64,000 nt of DNA from Emticicia sp. CRIBPO (GTDB lineage Bacteria > Bacteroidota > Bacteroidia > Cytophagales > Spirosomataceae). This document shows positions 5,100 through 34,192 of this stretch, piece after piece; within the stretch, counting starts at the first letter, position 1, and each line of letters begins with the position of its first letter. The notes under the pieces are model-generated. The model did not search any database. It was not told the origin of the DNA and saw only the letters and a list, made by a program, of their open reading frames with translations. A program made the position numbers and the translations under genes. The stretch lies in contig NZ_JAAAKV010000001.1 of the NCBI RefSeq assembly GCF_009905725.1, positions 620,001 to 684,000 of the forward strand, read 5' to 3'.

Positions 5100-5210
5100 T
5101 CTCCTGAAAAAGTAGTATCAGCCTCGCCTCTCGACTACGCTTGAGGTGACAATAGTGCAAAAAAGTCTACTCTGACACAGTTCTGTTTACACTCTCCTCT
5201 CTTACGTCGG

Positions 5211-5567
5211 CCCAACTGCGAGCTGCGTTACTCAAACTGCAAGATACGTAGCTCAAACTGTCAGTTACATCTCTCCAACGTAACTTTGCGTCGCTCCAAC
5301 GTAACTTTACATCGCTCCAACGCAACTTTACATCGCTCCAACGTAACTTTACATCGCTCCAACGTAACTTTACGCCACTCCAACGTAACTTTACGCCACT
5401 CCAACGTAACTTTACGCCACTCCAACGTAACTTTACGCCACTCCAACGCAACTTTACATCGCTCCAACGTAACTTTACATCGCTCCAACGTAACTTTACG
5501 CCGCTCCAACGTAACTTTACATCGCTCCAACGTAACTTTACGCCGCTCCAACGTAACTTTACGTTAA
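5211..5567. repeat. 17 tandem copies of a 21-bp unit
   Basis: The stretch 5211-5567 (357 nt) divides exactly into seventeen 21-mers. The core is TCCAACGTAACTTTAC followed by a variable five-base end, CATCGC-, GCCAC- or GCCGC-like. The three leftmost copies (5211-5273) are strongly diverged and begin CCCAACTG or TCAAACTG; copies from 5274 onward are nearly identical. It lies between two convergent genes. Because 21 is a multiple of three, ORFs run through on both strands and encode a seven-residue repeat (RSNVTLH-like), but none has a credible start or composition for a gene. Confidence 0.9.
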
Positions 5568-7092: not shown

Positions 7093-8070
7093 ATGAAATG
7101 GTTCAAAAGGATCTCGATCGGAATTCTCCTGTTTATAGTATTGGTACTGCTTGCCGGATTTGTGTATGAGCAGATTTCCCGCAACATGGCCCTGAAAAAA
7201 TATCCGCCTCACGGCAGCATGACCGATATCGGTGGTTATAAATTACATGCAGACATCAGGGGTAAAGGCGGACCGGTGGTCGTTTTCGAATCAGGCCTTG
7301 ACGGCGGCGGCTCACTGGCCTGGTCAAAAGTGCAGGACAAGGTGGCCGAATTCACCACCGCCTTTTCTTACGACCGTGCAGGGATCCTTTACAGTGAAAG
7401 GGGCCCGCAACCGAAAACCGGGGAGGCCATGGCCGAAGAATTACATACCTTATTAAATAAGTCCGGACTAAAAGGACCGTATATCCTGGTGGGCCACTCC
7501 ATGGCGGGCATTATCCTCAGAAGTTTCATTAAAAACTATCCCTGGGAAGTCGCCGGAATTGTATTTGTCGACACCTCCCATCCGGAGCAACTTACGCGTT
7601 TTCCGGAACTGGCCAAAGCCATGGAAGCCCTGCCTCCTGATGCGATGGTCAAACTGGCCTCCAACCTCGGCCTGGTGAGGCTGATGGTAAAAGAAAACTA
7701 CCCGTCGACACTTCCGGCTGACCCCACCAACATCATCAATAACGCTTTGTTTCCTTCGTCGCTGAGTGCGGTACTGGAAGAAAAAAATGAATTTGCCCCC
7801 ATGTCACTGATAGCCAGGGACATCAACAGTTTCGGTAATATCCCTTTAACCGTCATCACCGGCACCAGCCCTAACCGCATCAATGATTTCCCGGATCCTG
7901 AAATGGGCAAAAAGTTTATCCCTGCCTGGCTGGGACTTCAGAAAGAACAGGTGGCCCTTTCTACCAAAGGGACGCACGTACTGGCTCCTAAAAGTGGTCA
8001 TTATGTACAGTTTGACCAACCGGACCTGGTGATCAATGCCATTCACAAAATGGTCGGAAAATCACATTAA
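7093..8070 (+). CDS. Membrane-anchored alpha/beta hydrolase
   Basis: The 325-residue protein begins with one N-terminal transmembrane segment (about residues 7-25). An alpha/beta-hydrolase fold follows: a strand leading to VVVFESGLDGGG (oxyanion region), the nucleophile elbow GHSMAG, and a late histidine in KSGHYVQFDQPD. The catalytic aspartate may be the one in VFVDTSH or one near the end. The fold resembles esterases and haloalkane-dehalogenase-like hydrolases; the substrate is not predictable. The Crp/Fnr regulator starts about 60 nt downstream on the same strand and may be co-transcribed. Confidence 0.8.
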   Translation: MKWFKRISIGILLFIVLVLLAGFVYEQISRNMALKKYPPHGSMTDIGGYKLHADIRGKGGPVVVFESGLDGGGSLAWSKVQDKVAEFTTAFSYDRAGILYSERGPQPKTGEAMAEELHTLLNKSGLKGPYILVGHSMAGIILRSFIKNYPWEVAGIVFVDTSHPEQLTRFPELAKAMEALPPDAMVKLASNLGLVRLMVKENYPSTLPADPTNIINNALFPSSLSAVLEEKNEFAPMSLIARDINSFGNIPLTVITGTSPNRINDFPDPEMGKKFIPAWLGLQKEQVALSTKGTHVLAPKSGHYVQFDQPDLVINAIHKMVGKSH

Positions 8071-8131
8071 ATTAATTTCTGTATTTATTTTATGCCAATT
8101 TGTTTAATTTCACTCCAACAATCGGGCATAT

Positions 8132-8692
8132 ATGGAATTGATCAGTTTTATCCGGCAGCATGTACAACTTCCTTCTGAAATGGAGGCGGCTCTTGACCAC
8201 GCCTTTAAAAGAGAAGAACATCCGAAGCACCATAAATTACTGCAGCCCGACAACTGGTCCAAGAAAGTATGTTTTGTGGAACAGGGCCTGGTCAGGACCT
8301 ATTACTTAAAAGACGGCAAGGATATTACACATCATTTCTTTCCTGAAAATGCCTTCAATATGCCCATTGAAAGTATTTTTTACGGCCACACTTCGCCTTA
8401 CGGAGTGGAGTTGCTTGAAAACAGCGTGGTCAGGACCATCAACTACCCGGATGTGGAGAAATACTTCGGGCAGTCTTCAGAGCTTGAGAAATTCATCCGT
8501 TTCCTGCTGATTGACGTCCTCAAATCTTTCTCCGACAGGCTGTATGCCCTGCAGTTTCAGTCGGCACAGGAACGCTACAAAACCATGATCGACAACTACC
8601 CCAACATCTTGTTAAGGGCCCCGTTGGGCAATGTTGCCTCCTACCTGGGCATCACCCAGGAAACCCTGAGCCGCATCAGGGCCGCCCGTTGA
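8132..8692 (+). CDS. Crp/Fnr-family transcriptional regulator
   Basis: The 186-residue protein has a cyclic-nucleotide-binding-like beta-roll (about residues 25-115), a dimerisation helix and a C-terminal winged helix-turn-helix. The recognition helix reads GITQETLSRIR, keeping the E-x-x-S-R triad that in E. coli FNR contacts TTGAT half-sites (established). The N-terminal cysteine cluster of FNR is absent; only one cysteine is visible near residue 50, so oxygen sensing by a 4Fe-4S cluster is not supported. The protein ends right after the recognition helix. Five bases after its stop codon lies a perfect FNR-type dyad, suggesting it controls the downstream genes. Confidence 0.85.
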   Translation: MELISFIRQHVQLPSEMEAALDHAFKREEHPKHHKLLQPDNWSKKVCFVEQGLVRTYYLKDGKDITHHFFPENAFNMPIESIFYGHTSPYGVELLENSVVRTINYPDVEKYFGQSSELEKFIRFLLIDVLKSFSDRLYALQFQSAQERYKTMIDNYPNILLRAPLGNVASYLGITQETLSRIRAAR

Positions 8693-8696
8693 TTTT

Positions 8697-8740
8697 TTGA
8701 TATAGATCAAAAGAGCTCTCTTCAGAAGACCGGAACTTTG
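8697..8740 (+). promoter_or_regulatory. FNR-type site and -7 element for the 8762 gene
   Basis: TTGAT-ATAG-ATCAA at 8697-8710 is a perfect match to the FNR/Crp-type dyad TTGAT-N4-ATCAA. Its centre (8703.5) is 36.5 nt from the G of GAACTTTG (8733-8740), a one-mismatch TAnnTTTG -7 element. If transcription starts about five bases later, the site is centred near -41.5, the class II activator position. Confidence 0.7.
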
Positions 8741-8761
8741 CATTGTCAAACAGATACAACA

Positions 8762-9232
8762 ATGCAGAACCAGACATACCATTACATTTTTATTTGCGAT
8801 GAAAGCAGTATTGATACGGCTTTTTATCAGCTAAAAGACAAACTCCGCGAAAACCGGGACCATCACGTTTCCCTGGTTTATGCCGTTGCAGAAAGTCATT
8901 TTCTGTTTAAAAGAGAATTAAAGACCCTCAAAGAGCACTTCTATCAGCAATTACAGGTATTTACCGAAACCATCGCCGAAGCTTTTCCAGCCTATATCCG
9001 CCAGGAAACCATAGAGGTGATTCTCAATGAAAACACCCGTGATCACATTTATATCGGCATCAGGGGTATCGAAGATTTTACTTTTTCTGTCAGGCAGCAA
9101 CTGGAATTTCTCGGCATTGGAGAAAGTAACGGGCTGGTAACGCTTTTTGATATAGATCAAAATAAAAGAAAAACACACGTAGCAATTTTGCAGCATCAAA
9201 TTGAATTAAACAACAGAGACAATGATAACTAA
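8762..9232 (+). CDS. Uncharacterised 156-aa cytoplasmic protein
   Basis: I do not recognise this protein. It has no signal peptide or membrane helix and an alternating charged pattern. The ATG at 8762 is preferred; a TTG extension to 8738 would start inside the -7 element of the promoter. It stands between a Crp/Fnr gene and an RND efflux operon. Its last ~30 codons contain a second FNR-type site and -7 element serving the next gene, and its stop codon overlaps the start of that gene by 11 nt. It may be a small accessory or sensor protein of the efflux regulon (inference). Confidence 0.6.
   Translation: MQNQTYHYIFICDESSIDTAFYQLKDKLRENRDHHVSLVYAVAESHFLFKRELKTLKEHFYQQLQVFTETIAEAFPAYIRQETIEVILNENTRDHIYIGIRGIEDFTFSVRQQLEFLGIGESNGLVTLFDIDQNKRKTHVAILQHQIELNNRDNDN
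9147..9190 (+). promoter_or_regulatory. FNR-type site and -7 element for the RND efflux operon
   Basis: TTGAT-ATAG-ATCAA at 9147-9160 is identical over 14 bases to the site at 8697. Its centre is again exactly 36.5 nt from the G of CAATTTTG (9183-9190). The element lies inside the 3' end of the preceding coding sequence and 31 nt before the MFP start codon. Confidence 0.7.
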
Positions 9233-10259
9233 GAAAATTTATCCCCTGATCATTACTGCCGCTGTGCTGAGTGCCTGCGGATCCAAAAAAGAAGAAAAGA
9301 CTGCTGAAATACAAGCCGTTCCGGTGGTAACAGAACAGGCTCAGAAGACCACTTCAAAACACGAAATCTCCATCAGCGGAAACATCGAAGGGCATAAGAC
9401 CGTTCGCCTGGGTTTTATGGTGGCCGGAAAAATCAACTACATTGCAGCAGCTGAAGGGCAACTGGTCAGCAAAGGGCAGCTCCTCTCGAGTCTTGACCCG
9501 GCCAGTTACAACATCGCCCATGAAATGGCTGAGATCCAGGTTAACCAGGTGCAGGACGAATACAACCGCCTGAAAATCATGAAAGACAGGAACAGTCTGA
9601 GTGAAAGCGATTTTTCGAAGGTCAGTTTCGGACTACAGCAGGCTAAAACCCAGCAAAAACTACAGGATAAAAACCTGGCCGACACCAAACTGTATTCCCC
9701 GATAAGCGGTGTATTACTTAAAAAACTGGCTGAAACCGGGGAAATTACCGGTATAGGCACTCCCCTTTTTGTGGTTTCAGATATCAGGACCGTTAAAGTA
9801 AACGCCTTTATTCCGGAAAGTGAACTGCATCACATCAAACTCGGGCAGCAGGCTACGGTTTTGATTTCTTCTTTAAACGACACTTTCACAGGCAGGGTAA
9901 CCGAAGTAGGTTCTGCCGCTGATGTAACATCCAGGGCCTTTACCATTAAAATAGAATTACCGAACCCGAAACTCCTGATCCGTCCCGGTATGATCGCAGA
10001 AGTAAAAGTAAGCTCAGACCAAAGCAGGGAAGTACTTACCCTGCCGGCAGACGCGGTACTCAGAGACAGCGACAACCAGAGTTATGTCTATGTGGTAGAT
10101 CCCAGGCAAAACAAGGCTTTCAAACGTAAAATCAGCATCGGTCAGCTGATCAACAACCAGATCGAAATCATGTCCGGGCTGTCGGAAAGCGAAGTGGTGG
10201 TAACCGGCGGACAGCACAAGCTGGATGACGCCACACCCGTTACCATTTCTCAAAAATAA
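9222..10259 (+). CDS. RND efflux periplasmic adaptor (membrane fusion protein) lipoprotein
   Basis: The 345-residue protein carries a lipoprotein signal peptide with lipobox LSAC. The AcrA/HlyD adaptor architecture follows: a lipoyl half (GNIEGHKTVRLGFMVAGKI, EGQLVSKGQLL), a short coiled-coil hairpin (about residues 95-145), the second lipoyl half (SPISGVLLKK) and a beta-barrel domain ending in VVVTGGQHKL. It should bridge the inner-membrane pump and the TolC-like channel encoded immediately downstream. The gene overlaps the preceding small gene by 11 nt and has its own FNR-type promoter inside that gene. Confidence 0.9.
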   Translation: MITKKIYPLIITAAVLSACGSKKEEKTAEIQAVPVVTEQAQKTTSKHEISISGNIEGHKTVRLGFMVAGKINYIAAAEGQLVSKGQLLSSLDPASYNIAHEMAEIQVNQVQDEYNRLKIMKDRNSLSESDFSKVSFGLQQAKTQQKLQDKNLADTKLYSPISGVLLKKLAETGEITGIGTPLFVVSDIRTVKVNAFIPESELHHIKLGQQATVLISSLNDTFTGRVTEVGSAADVTSRAFTIKIELPNPKLLIRPGMIAEVKVSSDQSREVLTLPADAVLRDSDNQSYVYVVDPRQNKAFKRKISIGQLINNQIEIMSGLSESEVVVTGGQHKLDDATPVTISQK

Positions 10260-10295: not shown

Positions 10296-13200
10296 ATGAA
10301 TTTTGTCAAAGCATCATTAAAATATAAACAGGTCACTTTATCTGTGCTGTTGCTGGTTTTTGCCATCGGGGTAAACTCGCTGCTCAACATGCCGAGAAGA
10401 GAGGACCCGAAAATCACGGTCCGTCTGGGGCTTGTGATGGCTTACTACCCCGGAGCCAATTCGGCACAGGTGGAAGACCAGGTCACAAAAAAACTCGAAC
10501 AATACCTTTTCCAGTTTGAAGAAGTCCGTAAAGATAAAACTTACTCCACCACGCAGGATGGTATGGTGGTCATCAATGTGGAACTGGGCGAAAAGGTCAA
10601 AAATCCGGATATTTTCTGGAGTAAACTCCGTCATGAGCTGATGCTCGCTAAAAACCTTGACCTGCCTGCAGGTGTGAGGGGCCCCATCGTCAACTCAGAT
10701 TTCGGTGATACGGAAGCCCTGGTTATCGGTATTGAAGGCAAAAATGCAGATTATGCACAACTGAAAGAATATACCCAGAAACTGGAAGACCACCTGAGAA
10801 CCATCAAATCGGTTTCAAAAATCAAGAGAGTGGGTGAACAGAAAGAGCAGATCACCATCACTTCCAACTCTGAAAAACTGTCCCAGTATGGCGTCAGTTT
10901 ACAAAGGGTCGTGCAGGTATTGCAATCGCAAAACTCGATTGGTCCGACCGGCGAAATCAAAACAAAAAACAGTAAAACACCGCTCTACACTTCAGGATAT
11001 TACAATACAGAAAATGAAATAGCCAGCCAGATCGTCGATGCCAGCAAAAGCGGGGCCATCGTCAGGCTGGGCGATGTGGCCTCGATCAACAGGACCTATG
11101 CCGAGCCCAAAAGCAAGATTTCGGTCAACGGCAACAATGCGATGATCCTGACCGTACAGATGCAGGAAGGAAACAACATCGTTAAATTCGGAGAGGAAGT
11201 GCAGCAGAAAATCAGCGAAGTATCGCAACTGCTGCCGGGTGATGTTAAACTGACGACCGTTGTGAACCAGCCCAAGCTGGTGGATGAGAACATCTCACAC
11301 TTTATCAAAGAGTTTTTCCTGGCGATTATTTCGGTGGTGATTGTGGTCATCCTGCTTTTGCCCATGAGGATTGCCGCCGTGGCTGCCATGGCCATTCCGA
11401 TGACAGTGGCCGTTACTTTTGCACTTTTACACGCTTTCGGCATAGAACTGCACCAGGTTTCACTGGCCGCGTTGATAGTGGTGCTGGGCATGGTGGTTGA
11501 CGATGCGATTGTGATTGCGGACAATTACGTGGAATTGCTCGACGAAGGGGTTGACCGCTGGACAGCCGCCTGGAGAAGTGCCACAGACCTGGTGATTCCG
11601 GTCCTGGCTGCCACTGTGACCATCATCGCCTCGTTTATGCCGATGGTGATCCTGACCGGTTCAGTGGGTGAGTTTATCCATGCCCTGCCTATTACAGTAG
11701 CCATTGCCCTGGCGGCCTCGTTCATTGTAGCGATGATCCTAACGCCTCTGTTGTGTTATACCTTCATCAAAAAAGGCCTTCATGACCATTCGGATGAAGA
11801 AAAGAAAAAGAAAACGTCTCTGCTCGACCTGATGCAGAACGGGTATAATAACTTACTGGACTGGTGTGTAAAACATTCAAAACTGACCATCGGAATCAGT
11901 ATCCTCACCATCGCTCTGGCCGGTTTGATGTACACCCAGGTAAAACAGAAGTTCTTCCCGGCGGCCGAACGCAACCAGTTTGTCGTAGAGTTATGGATGC
12001 CGACCGGGACCCGTCTTGAAAAAACAGAACAGGCCATTCAGAAAGTGGAACAATTGGTCAAAAACGACAAAAGGGTTACTTCTTATGCTACCTTTATTGG
12101 CACCAGTGCTCCGAGGTTTTACTATAACTTCTCGCCTGAAGTGCCTGTAAGTAACTATGCCCAGATCCTGATCAACACCACGGACGAAAAAACAACGGAG
12201 TCTTTTGCAGAAGAACTGTCAGAAAAAACAGGAAATCTTATCCCGGAAGGAACGCCACAGGTAAAACTGATGCAGCAAGGCTCCCCGCTGAAAGCAGAAG
12301 TGGAAGTCAGGATTATCGGTGAAAATATCGATAAATTAAAACAACTGAGTACACAGGTACAGAACATTCTGAAAAAAGCCCATGGCAGCACGCTGGTGCG
12401 GAATGACTTTAAGGAGGATTATTACGGCATCAGTATCCAGCTCAAAGACGAAGCCAACAGACTGGGTTTTACCACCGAAAGCATTTCAAAAATGGTCTAT
12501 ACCGGATTCAGCGGGGCCCCGGTCTCAACGATGTATGAAGGCAATAACCCGGTAGACCTGGTATTGAGACTGGATGAGAAAAACCGCCAGACTTCAGATG
12601 ACCTGGAAAATATTTACCTGGCCTCACCGGCTACCGGAGCCAGTGTACCTTTAAGACAGATTGCCGACCTGGTACCTGAATGGCAGACCGGCAAGATCGT
12701 GCATCGCAATGGGGTCAGAACGCTGACTGTCCAGAGCGAAACGAAAGACGGTGTACTGCCTGCAGAGTTATTAAAAGAAATCCAGCCGGAAGTAGCTAAA
12801 ATTCAGCTTCCTGCAGGCTACAGAATAGAATATGGCGGGGAATATGCCAACAAAAAAGAGACTTTCAGCCAGATGATCACGGTGCTGGTCATCAGCCTGG
12901 TGTTGATTTTCTTTATTCTTTTGTTCCAGTTCAGGAATCTCAAAGAAGCGACCCTGGTGATGTTTACCATCCCGCTGAGCCTGTTCGGAGCCATTCTCGG
13001 CTTACTCATTACCCATAACAATTTCGGTTTCACGGCCTTCGTCGGGCTGGTCAGTTTATCAGGCATTGTCGTGAGAAACGCCATCATCCTGATCGATTAC
13101 ACCAATGAACTGCTTCACAAAGGCATGGATATCCCTACCGCTGCGGTAGAAGCAGGAAAACGACGTCTGAGACCTATTTTCCTGACCGCCATGGCTGCAG

Positions 13201-13364
13201 CGATAGGTGTCTTGCCGATGATTATTTCTGGTTCACCGATGTGGAGTCCCCTGGCCAGTGTACTGGCGGTGGGTGTCATCTGGTCTATGGTCATGGCCCT
13301 GCTCACCGTTCCGGTGCTTTATATCGCCATTGTTAAACCGAAAGACAAATTGCAGCATAATTAA
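10296..13364 (+). CDS. RND efflux pump, inner-membrane permease
   Basis: At 1022 residues this is a full-length AcrB/MexB-type permease: an N-terminal transmembrane helix, two large periplasmic loops and two bundles of six-transmembrane helices. The proton-relay aspartate pair is visible as GMVVDDAIV in the fourth helix, and the porter-domain regions are intact. It exports small hydrophobic or cationic compounds by proton antiport. It lies 36 nt after the adaptor gene and 7 nt before the TolC-like gene, so the three form one operon. Drug versus metal specificity cannot be decided; the sequence looks like hydrophobe (HAE-1-like) transporters. Confidence 0.93.
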   Translation: MNFVKASLKYKQVTLSVLLLVFAIGVNSLLNMPRREDPKITVRLGLVMAYYPGANSAQVEDQVTKKLEQYLFQFEEVRKDKTYSTTQDGMVVINVELGEKVKNPDIFWSKLRHELMLAKNLDLPAGVRGPIVNSDFGDTEALVIGIEGKNADYAQLKEYTQKLEDHLRTIKSVSKIKRVGEQKEQITITSNSEKLSQYGVSLQRVVQVLQSQNSIGPTGEIKTKNSKTPLYTSGYYNTENEIASQIVDASKSGAIVRLGDVASINRTYAEPKSKISVNGNNAMILTVQMQEGNNIVKFGEEVQQKISEVSQLLPGDVKLTTVVNQPKLVDENISHFIKEFFLAIISVVIVVILLLPMRIAAVAAMAIPMTVAVTFALLHAFGIELHQVSLAALIVVLGMVVDDAIVIADNYVELLDEGVDRWTAAWRSATDLVIPVLAATVTIIASFMPMVILTGSVGEFIHALPITVAIALAASFIVAMILTPLLCYTFIKKGLHDHSDEEKKKKTSLLDLMQNGYNNLLDWCVKHSKLTIGISILTIALAGLMYTQVKQKFFPAAERNQFVVELWMPTGTRLEKTEQAIQKVEQLVKNDKRVTSYATFIGTSAPRFYYNFSPEVPVSNYAQILINTTDEKTTESFAEELSEKTGNLIPEGTPQVKLMQQGSPLKAEVEVRIIGENIDKLKQLSTQVQNILKKAHGSTLVRNDFKEDYYGISIQLKDEANRLGFTTESISKMVYTGFSGAPVSTMYEGNNPVDLVLRLDEKNRQTSDDLENIYLASPATGASVPLRQIADLVPEWQTGKIVHRNGVRTLTVQSETKDGVLPAELLKEIQPEVAKIQLPAGYRIEYGGEYANKKETFSQMITVLVISLVLIFFILLFQFRNLKEATLVMFTIPLSLFGAILGLLITHNNFGFTAFVGLVSLSGIVVRNAIILIDYTNELLHKGMDIPTAAVEAGKRRLRPIFLTAMAAAIGVLPMIISGSPMWSPLASVLAVGVIWSMVMALLTVPVLYIAIVKPKDKLQHN

Positions 13365-13371
13365 TACCATC

Positions 13372-14721
13372 ATGAAAAGTCTTAAAAACATAAAAACAAG
13401 CTGGACCATCATCCTAACCCTAGGTGCCATCATTCCCGGATTTGCCCAGCAGTCTGAGCCGGTAAGCCTGCAAAAGGCCATTGACCTGGCTCTGACAAAC
13501 AACCAGCTGATCAACATCAGGAAAATGCAGATCGAAGAAAAACAGGCCAAAGTAGCGGAAGACAAGATCAGAAAATATCCGGCAGTCAGCCTGAGCTCTA
13601 CTTATCAATACAGCCAGAACCTGGGAAAACTCGTGGTACCGCAGGGTTCCTTCGGTTCACTTCCCCTGAGTCCTGAAAACACCATTGCCCTGCCTGGTGA
13701 AGAAAAAGTATTTGAACTGGGTAAACATAATAATTTCAATGCAGGGATATCCGTCTATCAGCCCTTGTCGCAACTCGACAAAATCAAAACAGGTGTAGCC
13801 GTTTCTGAAACAGAGGTAAACATAGCCGGACAGGAAAAAGTAAAAGTATCTCTTCAGATCAGACAGGCTGTTGAAAGGCTGTATTATGGTCTGCTGATCA
13901 ATCAGAAACAAAAAGAAGAGGCTTTGTCTAAAATAGAACTGAGCAAACTCAGGATATATGACGTGGAAAGTGCCTTATTGTCCGGTAAAACCATCAACAT
14001 CAGCAAGGCCGGGCTGCTGGCCTCCATAGCCGATGAAGAGCAAAACCTGCTTAAACTCAGCATTCAGGCAGAAGATTATACAGAAGACCTCAAACTGCTG
14101 ACAGGGATCAAAGCCAATGAACTCATCCTGGAACCCGTCAGCTTAAATTCTGATCAATACCTGCCGGCAGAGACTTATAAAAGCATGGCAGCTTCGCATA
14201 ACCCCGAACTGAAGATCGCATCGCTGACGCAGACCAAAGCAGAATATGGCATAAAAGCCGCCCGGCTTAGTAACAGGCCCGACTTCGGATTGATTGCCGG
14301 GTACAGTTTCCAGACCGGGAATAATCTTTTCCCTGCTCACAATCCGTTCATCGGGGCATCTTTAAAATGGAACATCCAGGACATTTTTTCCAATAAAGAA
14401 GTATTGAAACAAAGGCAGTTGAACCTGCAGCAAGCCCGCGAAAACGCAGACTACACCAAAGACCAGGTAAATAGCAGCATAGATAAAACGTACAGAAAAC
14501 TGGCCCATGCCACAGAGCTGATCAGTGTGGCTCAAAAAGCCCTGGATTACAGGAAAGAAGAATTAAAACTTCAAAATGACAAAAAAGAAGCGGGTCTGAA
14601 TATTGAAACGGACATTCTGAACACCAAAGCACTGATAGCCAAAGCCGAATCTGACCTGCTTTCAGCCCAGCTGAATTTCCGTCTTTCCCTTTCGGACCTC
14701 AAAATGCTGACAGGAGAATAA
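13372..14721 (+). CDS. TolC-family outer-membrane efflux protein
   Basis: The ATG at 13372 starts a 449-residue protein with a signal peptide (cut near GFAQ). The frame is open from 13258, but that part overlaps the pump gene. Two tandem halves of long alpha-helical coiled coil with short beta segments match the TolC/OEP family (SLQKAIDLALTNNQ near residue 30, and a second repeat from about 240). It forms the outer-membrane channel for the RND pump just upstream and ends at a strong bidirectional terminator. Confidence 0.9.
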   Translation: MKSLKNIKTSWTIILTLGAIIPGFAQQSEPVSLQKAIDLALTNNQLINIRKMQIEEKQAKVAEDKIRKYPAVSLSSTYQYSQNLGKLVVPQGSFGSLPLSPENTIALPGEEKVFELGKHNNFNAGISVYQPLSQLDKIKTGVAVSETEVNIAGQEKVKVSLQIRQAVERLYYGLLINQKQKEEALSKIELSKLRIYDVESALLSGKTINISKAGLLASIADEEQNLLKLSIQAEDYTEDLKLLTGIKANELILEPVSLNSDQYLPAETYKSMAASHNPELKIASLTQTKAEYGIKAARLSNRPDFGLIAGYSFQTGNNLFPAHNPFIGASLKWNIQDIFSNKEVLKQRQLNLQQARENADYTKDQVNSSIDKTYRKLAHATELISVAQKALDYRKEELKLQNDKKEAGLNIETDILNTKALIAKAESDLLSAQLNFRLSLSDLKMLTGE

Positions 14722-33571: not shown

Positions 33572-34144
33572 ATGGAAGCAATCAGACAAACCCTCATCTC
33601 TCTATTTAATCTCACAGAAGAAGAAGCTGACACCTTCCTTTCGGCCTTTGTCAGGATCGAAATGAAGAAAAAAGAAGTGTTTGTCGAAGAAGGGAAAGTC
33701 TGCCATAAAGTGGGCTTAATTGAAAAAGGACTCATGCTGTGTGTCTATCAAAAAGACGGAAACGAGATCATCGACGAATTTGCTTTCGAAAACAGCTTTA
33801 TCACAAATTACTACAGCTTTCTGACTCACACGCCATCGACCAAAGAAATCAGATGCCTTGAAGACACTATTCTTCACGTAGTTTCAAGAGAACAACTGAA
33901 TGAACTGGCAGCTGAACATCCTTTTATTGCCCGTATGAGCGGCTTGATGAATGAAAAGTTGTTTATCAGAGCTCATGAAAGAATAAGCTCCTTGCTGCTC
34001 GACTCAGCCGAAGAAAGATACATGAAACTCATCAGACAGAGGCCAGATTTAACCCAACGCCTGCCTCAATACCTCATTGCTTCTTATCTGAATTTAAAAC
34101 CGGAAACCATCAGCAGGATCCGTAAAAAAATCAGTGATCATTAA
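33572..34144 (+). CDS. Crp/Fnr-family transcriptional regulator, second copy
   Basis: The 190-residue protein has a cNMP-binding-like N-terminal beta-roll and a C-terminal helix-turn-helix with recognition helix NLKPETISRIRKK. This keeps the E-T-I-S-R residues identical to E. coli FNR. It lacks FNR's N-terminal cysteine cluster. The start codon follows the antitoxin stop codon without a gap, so the regulator is probably expressed from the toxin-antitoxin promoter. An FNR-type near-dyad lies 4 nt after its own stop codon, in front of the DinB gene. Confidence 0.85.
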   Translation: MEAIRQTLISLFNLTEEEADTFLSAFVRIEMKKKEVFVEEGKVCHKVGLIEKGLMLCVYQKDGNEIIDEFAFENSFITNYYSFLTHTPSTKEIRCLEDTILHVVSREQLNELAAEHPFIARMSGLMNEKLFIRAHERISSLLLDSAEERYMKLIRQRPDLTQRLPQYLIASYLNLKPETISRIRKKISDH

Positions 34145-34148
34145 TTTA

Positions 34149-34192
34149 TTGATCCAGGTCAACCACCAGATAATTTCCCTTCCATAGATTTG
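34149..34192 (+). promoter_or_regulatory. FNR-type site and perfect -7 element for the DinB gene
   Basis: TTGAT-CCAG-GTCAA (34149-34162) differs from the FNR consensus by one base. Its centre is 36.5 nt from the G of TAGATTTG (34185-34192), an exact TAnnTTTG. The distance is identical to that at 8697 and 9147, and the ATG lies 21 nt downstream. Confidence 0.7.

Follow-up and report, generated by a model that had tools for sequence, protein, structure and literature searches.

In Bacteroidota, a regulator gene of the Crp/Fnr kind, a palindromic dyad just behind its stop codon and a -7 promoter element at a fixed distance from that dyad form a unit that recurs widely, and across its copies the recognition helix of the regulator and the arms of the dyad are associated. 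In the window, that is, the whole 64-kb stretch of DNA analysed, the protein encoded at 8132 is most likely a local class II activator of the genes at 8762 and 9222; its binding, the activation and the transcript starts are what we infer from the layout of the DNA. The proposal taken as a whole, namely that 8132 encodes an activator, that its sites are of class II, that the unit recurs and that helix and dyad change together, is in our judgement quite probable.

Regulator, dyads and putative promoters in the window

The gene order is Crp/Fnr regulator, 156-residue protein, HlyD adaptor, RND permease and outer-membrane efflux protein, with the following features.

8132..8692, plus strand: Crp/Fnr-superfamily regulator, 186 aa, recognition helix ITQETLSRIR, one cysteine (PF00027, PDB 3dn7)
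8697..8710, plus strand: FNR-type dyad 1 (sequence scan, centre 8703.5)
8733..8740, plus strand: -7-like element GAACTTTG of putative promoter 1 (5/6 letters of TAnnTTTG; predicted start about 8745)
8762..9232, plus strand: 156-aa protein, NAD-binding-domain-related family (family profile, alignment)
9147..9160, plus strand: FNR-type dyad 2 (sequence scan, centre 9153.5)
9183..9190, plus strand: -7-like element CAATTTTG of putative promoter 2 (5/6 letters of TAnnTTTG; predicted start about 9195)
9222..10259, plus strand: HlyD/RND periplasmic adaptor, presumed target (family searches)
10296..13364, plus strand: RND permease, AcrB-type family (family searches)
13366..14721, plus strand: outer-membrane efflux protein (family search; start chosen for the search)

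The first dyad, TTGAT-ATAG-ATCAA, begins at the fifth base past the TGA stop codon of the regulator gene and is followed, after a gap of 26 nt, by TTTG at 8737-8740. The preliminary description had placed this dyad 5 nt past the stop with its centre 36.5 nt from the G, and the coordinates of dyad (8697-8710), stop codon (8690-8692) and G (8740) bear it out. The second dyad, absent from that description and the best support for its observation, is identical in all 14 bases, is the only other copy in the window and again precedes TTTG (9187-9190) by 26 nt, with 36.5 nt from its centre to the G at 9190; both exact dyads of the window (2/2) have TTTG at gap 26. No sigma-70-type promoter match was found in 8050-9300.

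The start of hlyD lies 62 nt past the end of dyad 2; the best reading of this dyad is as a promoter site for hlyD into which the 8762 frame extends. A 19-column stretch near the C-terminus of the 8762 protein, whose DNA contains dyad 2, is missing in nine of nine aligned relatives, and the octamer at 9183-9190 is found also at the lone hlyD-site dyad of two Dyadobacter loci (L148 and L182), in which an 8762 relative was not found and the one dyad stands directly before hlyD. A parallel to the doubled site of the window is seen in Ohtaekwangia koreensis (L156), where two identical TTAATATATATTAA sites, 25 and 1375 nt past the regulator stop and in the same operon, are both at gap 26. As for the 8762 protein, single members of its family are weak in Pfam, and the family profile matches the NAD-binding domains of ferredoxin/cytochrome b5 reductases (best E 6.6e-7); it is a lone, degenerate NAD-binding domain of ferredoxin-reductase type between regulator and efflux genes.

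An activator centred at -41.5 occupies the class II position. Because the gap is 26 nt and the -7 element of F. johnsoniae, in the available part of its published account, reads T-12 A-11 ... T-8 T-7 T-6 G-5 (PMC6847099), the dyad centre falls at -41.5; the position near -41.5 proposed in the preliminary description thus follows from the published -7 numbering, counted from a predicted start. Among 107 sites for which only TTTG was required, A stands at -11 in 81%, and at -12 T is found in 30% and G in 55%. If the start is taken as G+5, the median leader length is 19 nt in the 99 sites with a downstream frame, the first genes of which include OEP (31), HlyD (8), DoxX-like (5) and alpha/beta-hydrolase (5) genes. 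Such promoter features fit weak promoters that would need contact between activator and polymerase.

E. coli FNR reads a TTGAT-N4-ATCAA dyad through E, S and R of its recognition helix at class II promoters of textbook type, and as an oxygen sensor it uses four cysteines for an Fe-S cluster. The 8132 protein resembles it in the dyad, in the E, S and R of its helix and in a dyad centre predicted near -41.5: ITQETLSRIR together with TTGATATAGATCAA has the E..SR helix and TTGAT-type arms of FNR-type DNA recognition. Unlike FNR, it lacks the Fe-S cysteine set, as had been noted before, and because its translation has a single cysteine, FNR-type Fe-S sensing is argued against; it is also proposed to act on the neighbouring gene, with a -7 element in place of the sigma-70 -10. 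The sensor domain is of the cyclic-nucleotide-binding type (PF00027, 27.8 bits vs a cut-off of 27.5), and the protein matches PDB 3dn7 over residues 3-184 (E 7e-11), recognition helix covered; no Pfam HTH model matched it at E 0.001.

In the mechanism that we propose, the product of 8132 is a one-component activator that belongs to the Crp/Fnr superfamily, acts locally and has no FNR-type Fe-S cluster. Its dimer would bind the dyad, with the centre at -41.5, and the Bacteroidota -7 element closely following the dyad is without the consensus T at -12. The bound protein would contact RNA polymerase in class II fashion and switch on 8762, and from the identical second site it would switch on the hlyD-RND-TolC efflux genes. 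The signal is possibly a compound exported by the pump.

Fixed spacing across and within genomes

Loci were picked by similarity to the 8132 regulator, and one of the peptide patterns used, with GI[TS]Q as its last residues, gives an advantage to Q at position 180. In a first set of 65 neighbourhoods from 59 genomes, collected with the 8132 protein, 19 dyads with at most one mismatch, the two of the window among them, are followed by TTTG at gap 26, and the 55 other gaps give a mean of 0.62 and a maximum of 5. A further set of 105 loci, separate from but phylogenetically not independent of the first 65, consists of 80 named records (the best 80 of 580 relatives) less one duplicate (L203 = L202) and 26 additional loci; it was scanned from -20 to +300 nt of the stop codon for 5-4-5 palindromes of any sequence. 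In this set, the best 80 of 580 relatives included, perfect palindromes are at gap 26 in 41/105 loci vs 2 at gap 27, with a mean of 0.71 and a maximum of 3 over the 55 other gaps, and palindromes with at least 4/5 pairs are at gap 26 in 73/105 vs a mean of 8.55 matches elsewhere. At one locus (L044) the regulator frame has an internal stop codon, yet a perfect TTGAT dyad stands behind it at gap 26.

A count blind to genes, over 99 genomes with that of the window included, placed 76 of 823 dyad-TTTG pairs (gaps 16-36) on gap 26, for which a uniform distribution would give 39 (p 5e-8). The enrichment of motif and spacing in genomes at large on which the preliminary description had let its reading depend is thus present (76 observed vs 39 expected in 99 genomes), and the peak is far sharper beside regulator genes. 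Among 40 loci with perfect dyads (L072-L111), 31 have a gap-26 pair; a regulator signature lies within 700 nt in 3/31 of these and in 0/18 control loci with other gaps, the signature used being too narrow, as it missed the gene beside C12:392679. For that reason the Fisher comparison made with it in the genome of the window (3/3 vs 0/20) was set aside. Given that most of these gap-26 pairs are without a nearby signature, many of those counted across genomes may be chance occurrences or distal targets. The palindrome of BT4338, also called Cur, gave no gap-26 peak in a 291-genome sample (3 of the 88 matches listed at gaps 16-36, about 4 expected), which sets it apart from 8132-type sites and would count against a phylum-wide gap-26 rule.

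The genome from which the window comes has 23 exact dyads and 4 matches to the reversed pattern. TTTG at gap 26, in one orientation, accompanies three of these dyads (8697, 9147 and C35:369007). Two of the three, 8697 and C35:369007, begin at the fifth base past an ETLSR Crp/Fnr gene; that at 9147 shares the operon of 8697, and a fourth dyad (C12:392679) lies behind another ETLSR Crp/Fnr gene at gap 27. A census of the 40 PF00027 matches of this genome, 38 of them over the cut-off, kept the 31/40 with a readable helix and dropped the 9/40 without, and accepted palindromes with at least 4/5 pairs that lie between -20 and +60 of the stop codon and have TTTG 26 or 27 nt on. Such a site is found at 16/31 genes, with 9 matches at gap 26 and 8 at gap 27 and a mean of 0.85 and a maximum of 4 at other gaps; the genome therefore uses both gaps, and the near equality of 27 with 26 counts against the main reading. 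In a control of 47 window frames of at least 180 codons, only stop 8692 is followed by a perfect palindrome that has TTTG at gap 26 or 27, and a looser rule is passed by four frames, namely 8692, 34144 (a second Crp/Fnr gene) and two others. Behind this second regulator of the window, which spans 33572-34144 and has the helix PETISR, come TTGATCCAGGTCAA at 34149-34162 and TTTG at 34189-34192, at gap 26. The small gene that comes next is presumably DinB-like.

Association of recognition helix and dyad

With helix residues numbered as in E. coli CRP, the arms of the dyad differ by helix type. In the further set, including the best 80 of 580 relatives, genes with E181 and S-R have a site in 45/64 cases, with TTGAT or TTGAC arms and G at base 3 of both arms in 43/45; those with Q, S or P181 and S-V have one in 27/33, with arms that are mostly TTAAG or TTAAT and G at base 3 in 0/27; and those with V181 have one in 1/7. 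The V181 genes of the first set have a site in 15/24, with arms of the TTAAC, TTTAC or TTATC type. Under a rule without a requirement at base 3, a site is found in 102/170 rows of both sets, again with the best 80 of 580 relatives included: G/G stands at base 3 in 61/62 E..SR rows vs 0/31 ..SV and 0/7 V..SR rows (0/38 together), the two remaining rows being L044 (G/G) and L053 (C/C). By the same rule and with the same inclusion, 36/98 E..SR genes are without a site, which counts against the association. Within the census of the genome of the window, a RETLSR gene (L265) is followed by the CRP-like TGTGAGAATTGTCACA, and PVSLSR/K genes (L256, L266 and L274) have TTATC or TTAAC arms behind them.

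In related RND operons a site is present in 20/21 and the helix matches the dyad in 20/20, seven being E..SR with TTGA and 13 ..SV with TTAA; at L147, from Spirosoma, no site was found even by a relaxed rule. Among Dyadobacter species, helix and dyad differ jointly: Dyadobacter endophyticus has ETLSR and TTGATTTAGATCAA, and D. bucti and D. frigoris have QTLSV with TTAATCCAGCTTAA and TTAATCTAGCTTAA, respectively. Consideration of descent weakens the statistics: the loci are related, the regulator tree yields only 3 well-supported independent pairs (p 0.25 in a sign test), the HlyD tree has 2 changes of helix, and tree-based tests are low in power. The covariation of helix and arms (61/62 vs 0/38; 20/20 RND operons) nevertheless backs the reading through E, S and R of the helix that the preliminary description had given.

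Rival readings, known systems and meaning

It is unlikely, though worth weighing, that 8132 binds the dyads as a repressor, which would block the upstream part of the promoter and be released by a substrate of the pump. TetR-type efflux repressors are released in just this way, and the targets are often efflux genes (OEP 31/99, HlyD 8/99), which are repressor-controlled in many bacteria. The strict gap (41 loci at 26, 2 at 27, the best 80 of 580 relatives included) suits contact with polymerase, however, -41.5 is the position which that contact needs, and the T at -12 is missing from the -7 elements in 70% of 107 sites. For repression it may be added that BT4338 both activates and represses, according to the available part of its account (PMC6989115).

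Much less probable still is that another Crp/Fnr paralogue is the main user of both sites. The genome offers 40 PF00027 matches (38 over the cut-off), and several E..SR paralogues own TTGAY dyads; against such an exchange, the helix of the adjoining gene fits the adjoining dyad in 20/20 related RND operons, and helix and arm are associated across 102 loci (best 80 of 580 relatives included). That the dyad is the terminator of the regulator gene, or a palindrome arisen by chance, is scarcely credible. It does lie directly behind the stop codon and a 9-pair hairpin is possible, but the fold, at -5.4 kcal/mol, is equalled by 132/200 shuffles and a search for terminator-like sites gave none, and on these grounds the terminator was rejected. 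Either explanation leaves the TTTG distance and the helix association unexplained, and chance does not give the gap-26 peaks described above. Activation from a class II site by 8132 itself is thus the reading that we prefer.

Parts of this picture have precedent. HcpR, HcpR2, DNR, NnrR and NssR are Crp/Fnr proteins without Fe-S cysteines, in which the identity of residues 180 and 181 is correlated with that of the arm bases and for which TTGAC, GTAAC and TTAAC motifs are given (Rodionov et al. 2005, PMC1274295, in the available part). The 8132 protein shares with them the lack of an Fe-S cysteine set and the link between residues 180/181 and arm bases; a fixed distance to a -7 element, an adjacent-gene unit and an S-V helix with TTAA[G/T] arms are found here and not in the part of that account available. 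In Bacteroides thetaiotaomicron, BT4338 is a global carbohydrate regulator with motif TATGTTnTAnAACATA, and its palindrome upstream of fusA2 lies near a putative -7 element and is needed for binding there, to the extent of the accessible portions of PMC6989115 and PMC3878776; it is like 8132 in being a Bacteroidota Crp-family protein with a palindrome so placed. The helix code thus has precedent (Rodionov 2005, PMC1274295), and the gene-adjacent fixed geometry appears to be the new part. Within the open-licence literature, subscription papers being outside its scope, no description was found of a unit in which gene and site adjoin and the Bacteroidota -7 element follows at a fixed gap.

More broadly, a Crp/Fnr gene followed at once by a class II promoter of its own for the next gene may have been multiplied in Bacteroidota until a genome carries dozens of candidates, kept apart by joint changes of helix and dyad (TTGAY, TTAAC/TTATC, TTAA[G/T] and CRP-like GTGA types), a tentative idea to which we give a little less than an even chance. 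If it is true, Bacteroidota genomes amount to a natural library, readable from sequence, of activator-promoter pairs that are largely orthogonal, and regulator-switch pairs can be proposed from genome sequence alone. A single Bacteroidota genome, that of the window, has about 40 proteins of the Crp/Fnr kind by PF00027 count, and for most of such proteins we know of no site, target or signal. Should the unit hold, site, target and transcript start would become predictable from sequence for many of them. It would also provide natural data in which helix residues can be related to bases where promoter geometry is constant, and a concrete picture of how class II activation could be laid out around the unusual -7 element of Bacteroidota.

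Two minor observations concern the same genome. Behind a regulator gene of the PEFLSK type (L263) there are two dyad-like palindromes, TTAAACTATGTTAA and then TTAAAATAGGTTAA, both within the first 60 bases past the stop codon. In the window itself, the intergenic stretch 5167-5567 holds short tandem repeats, with peptides repeated in three frames (TLERRKV, RWSGVKL and HRSNVTL).
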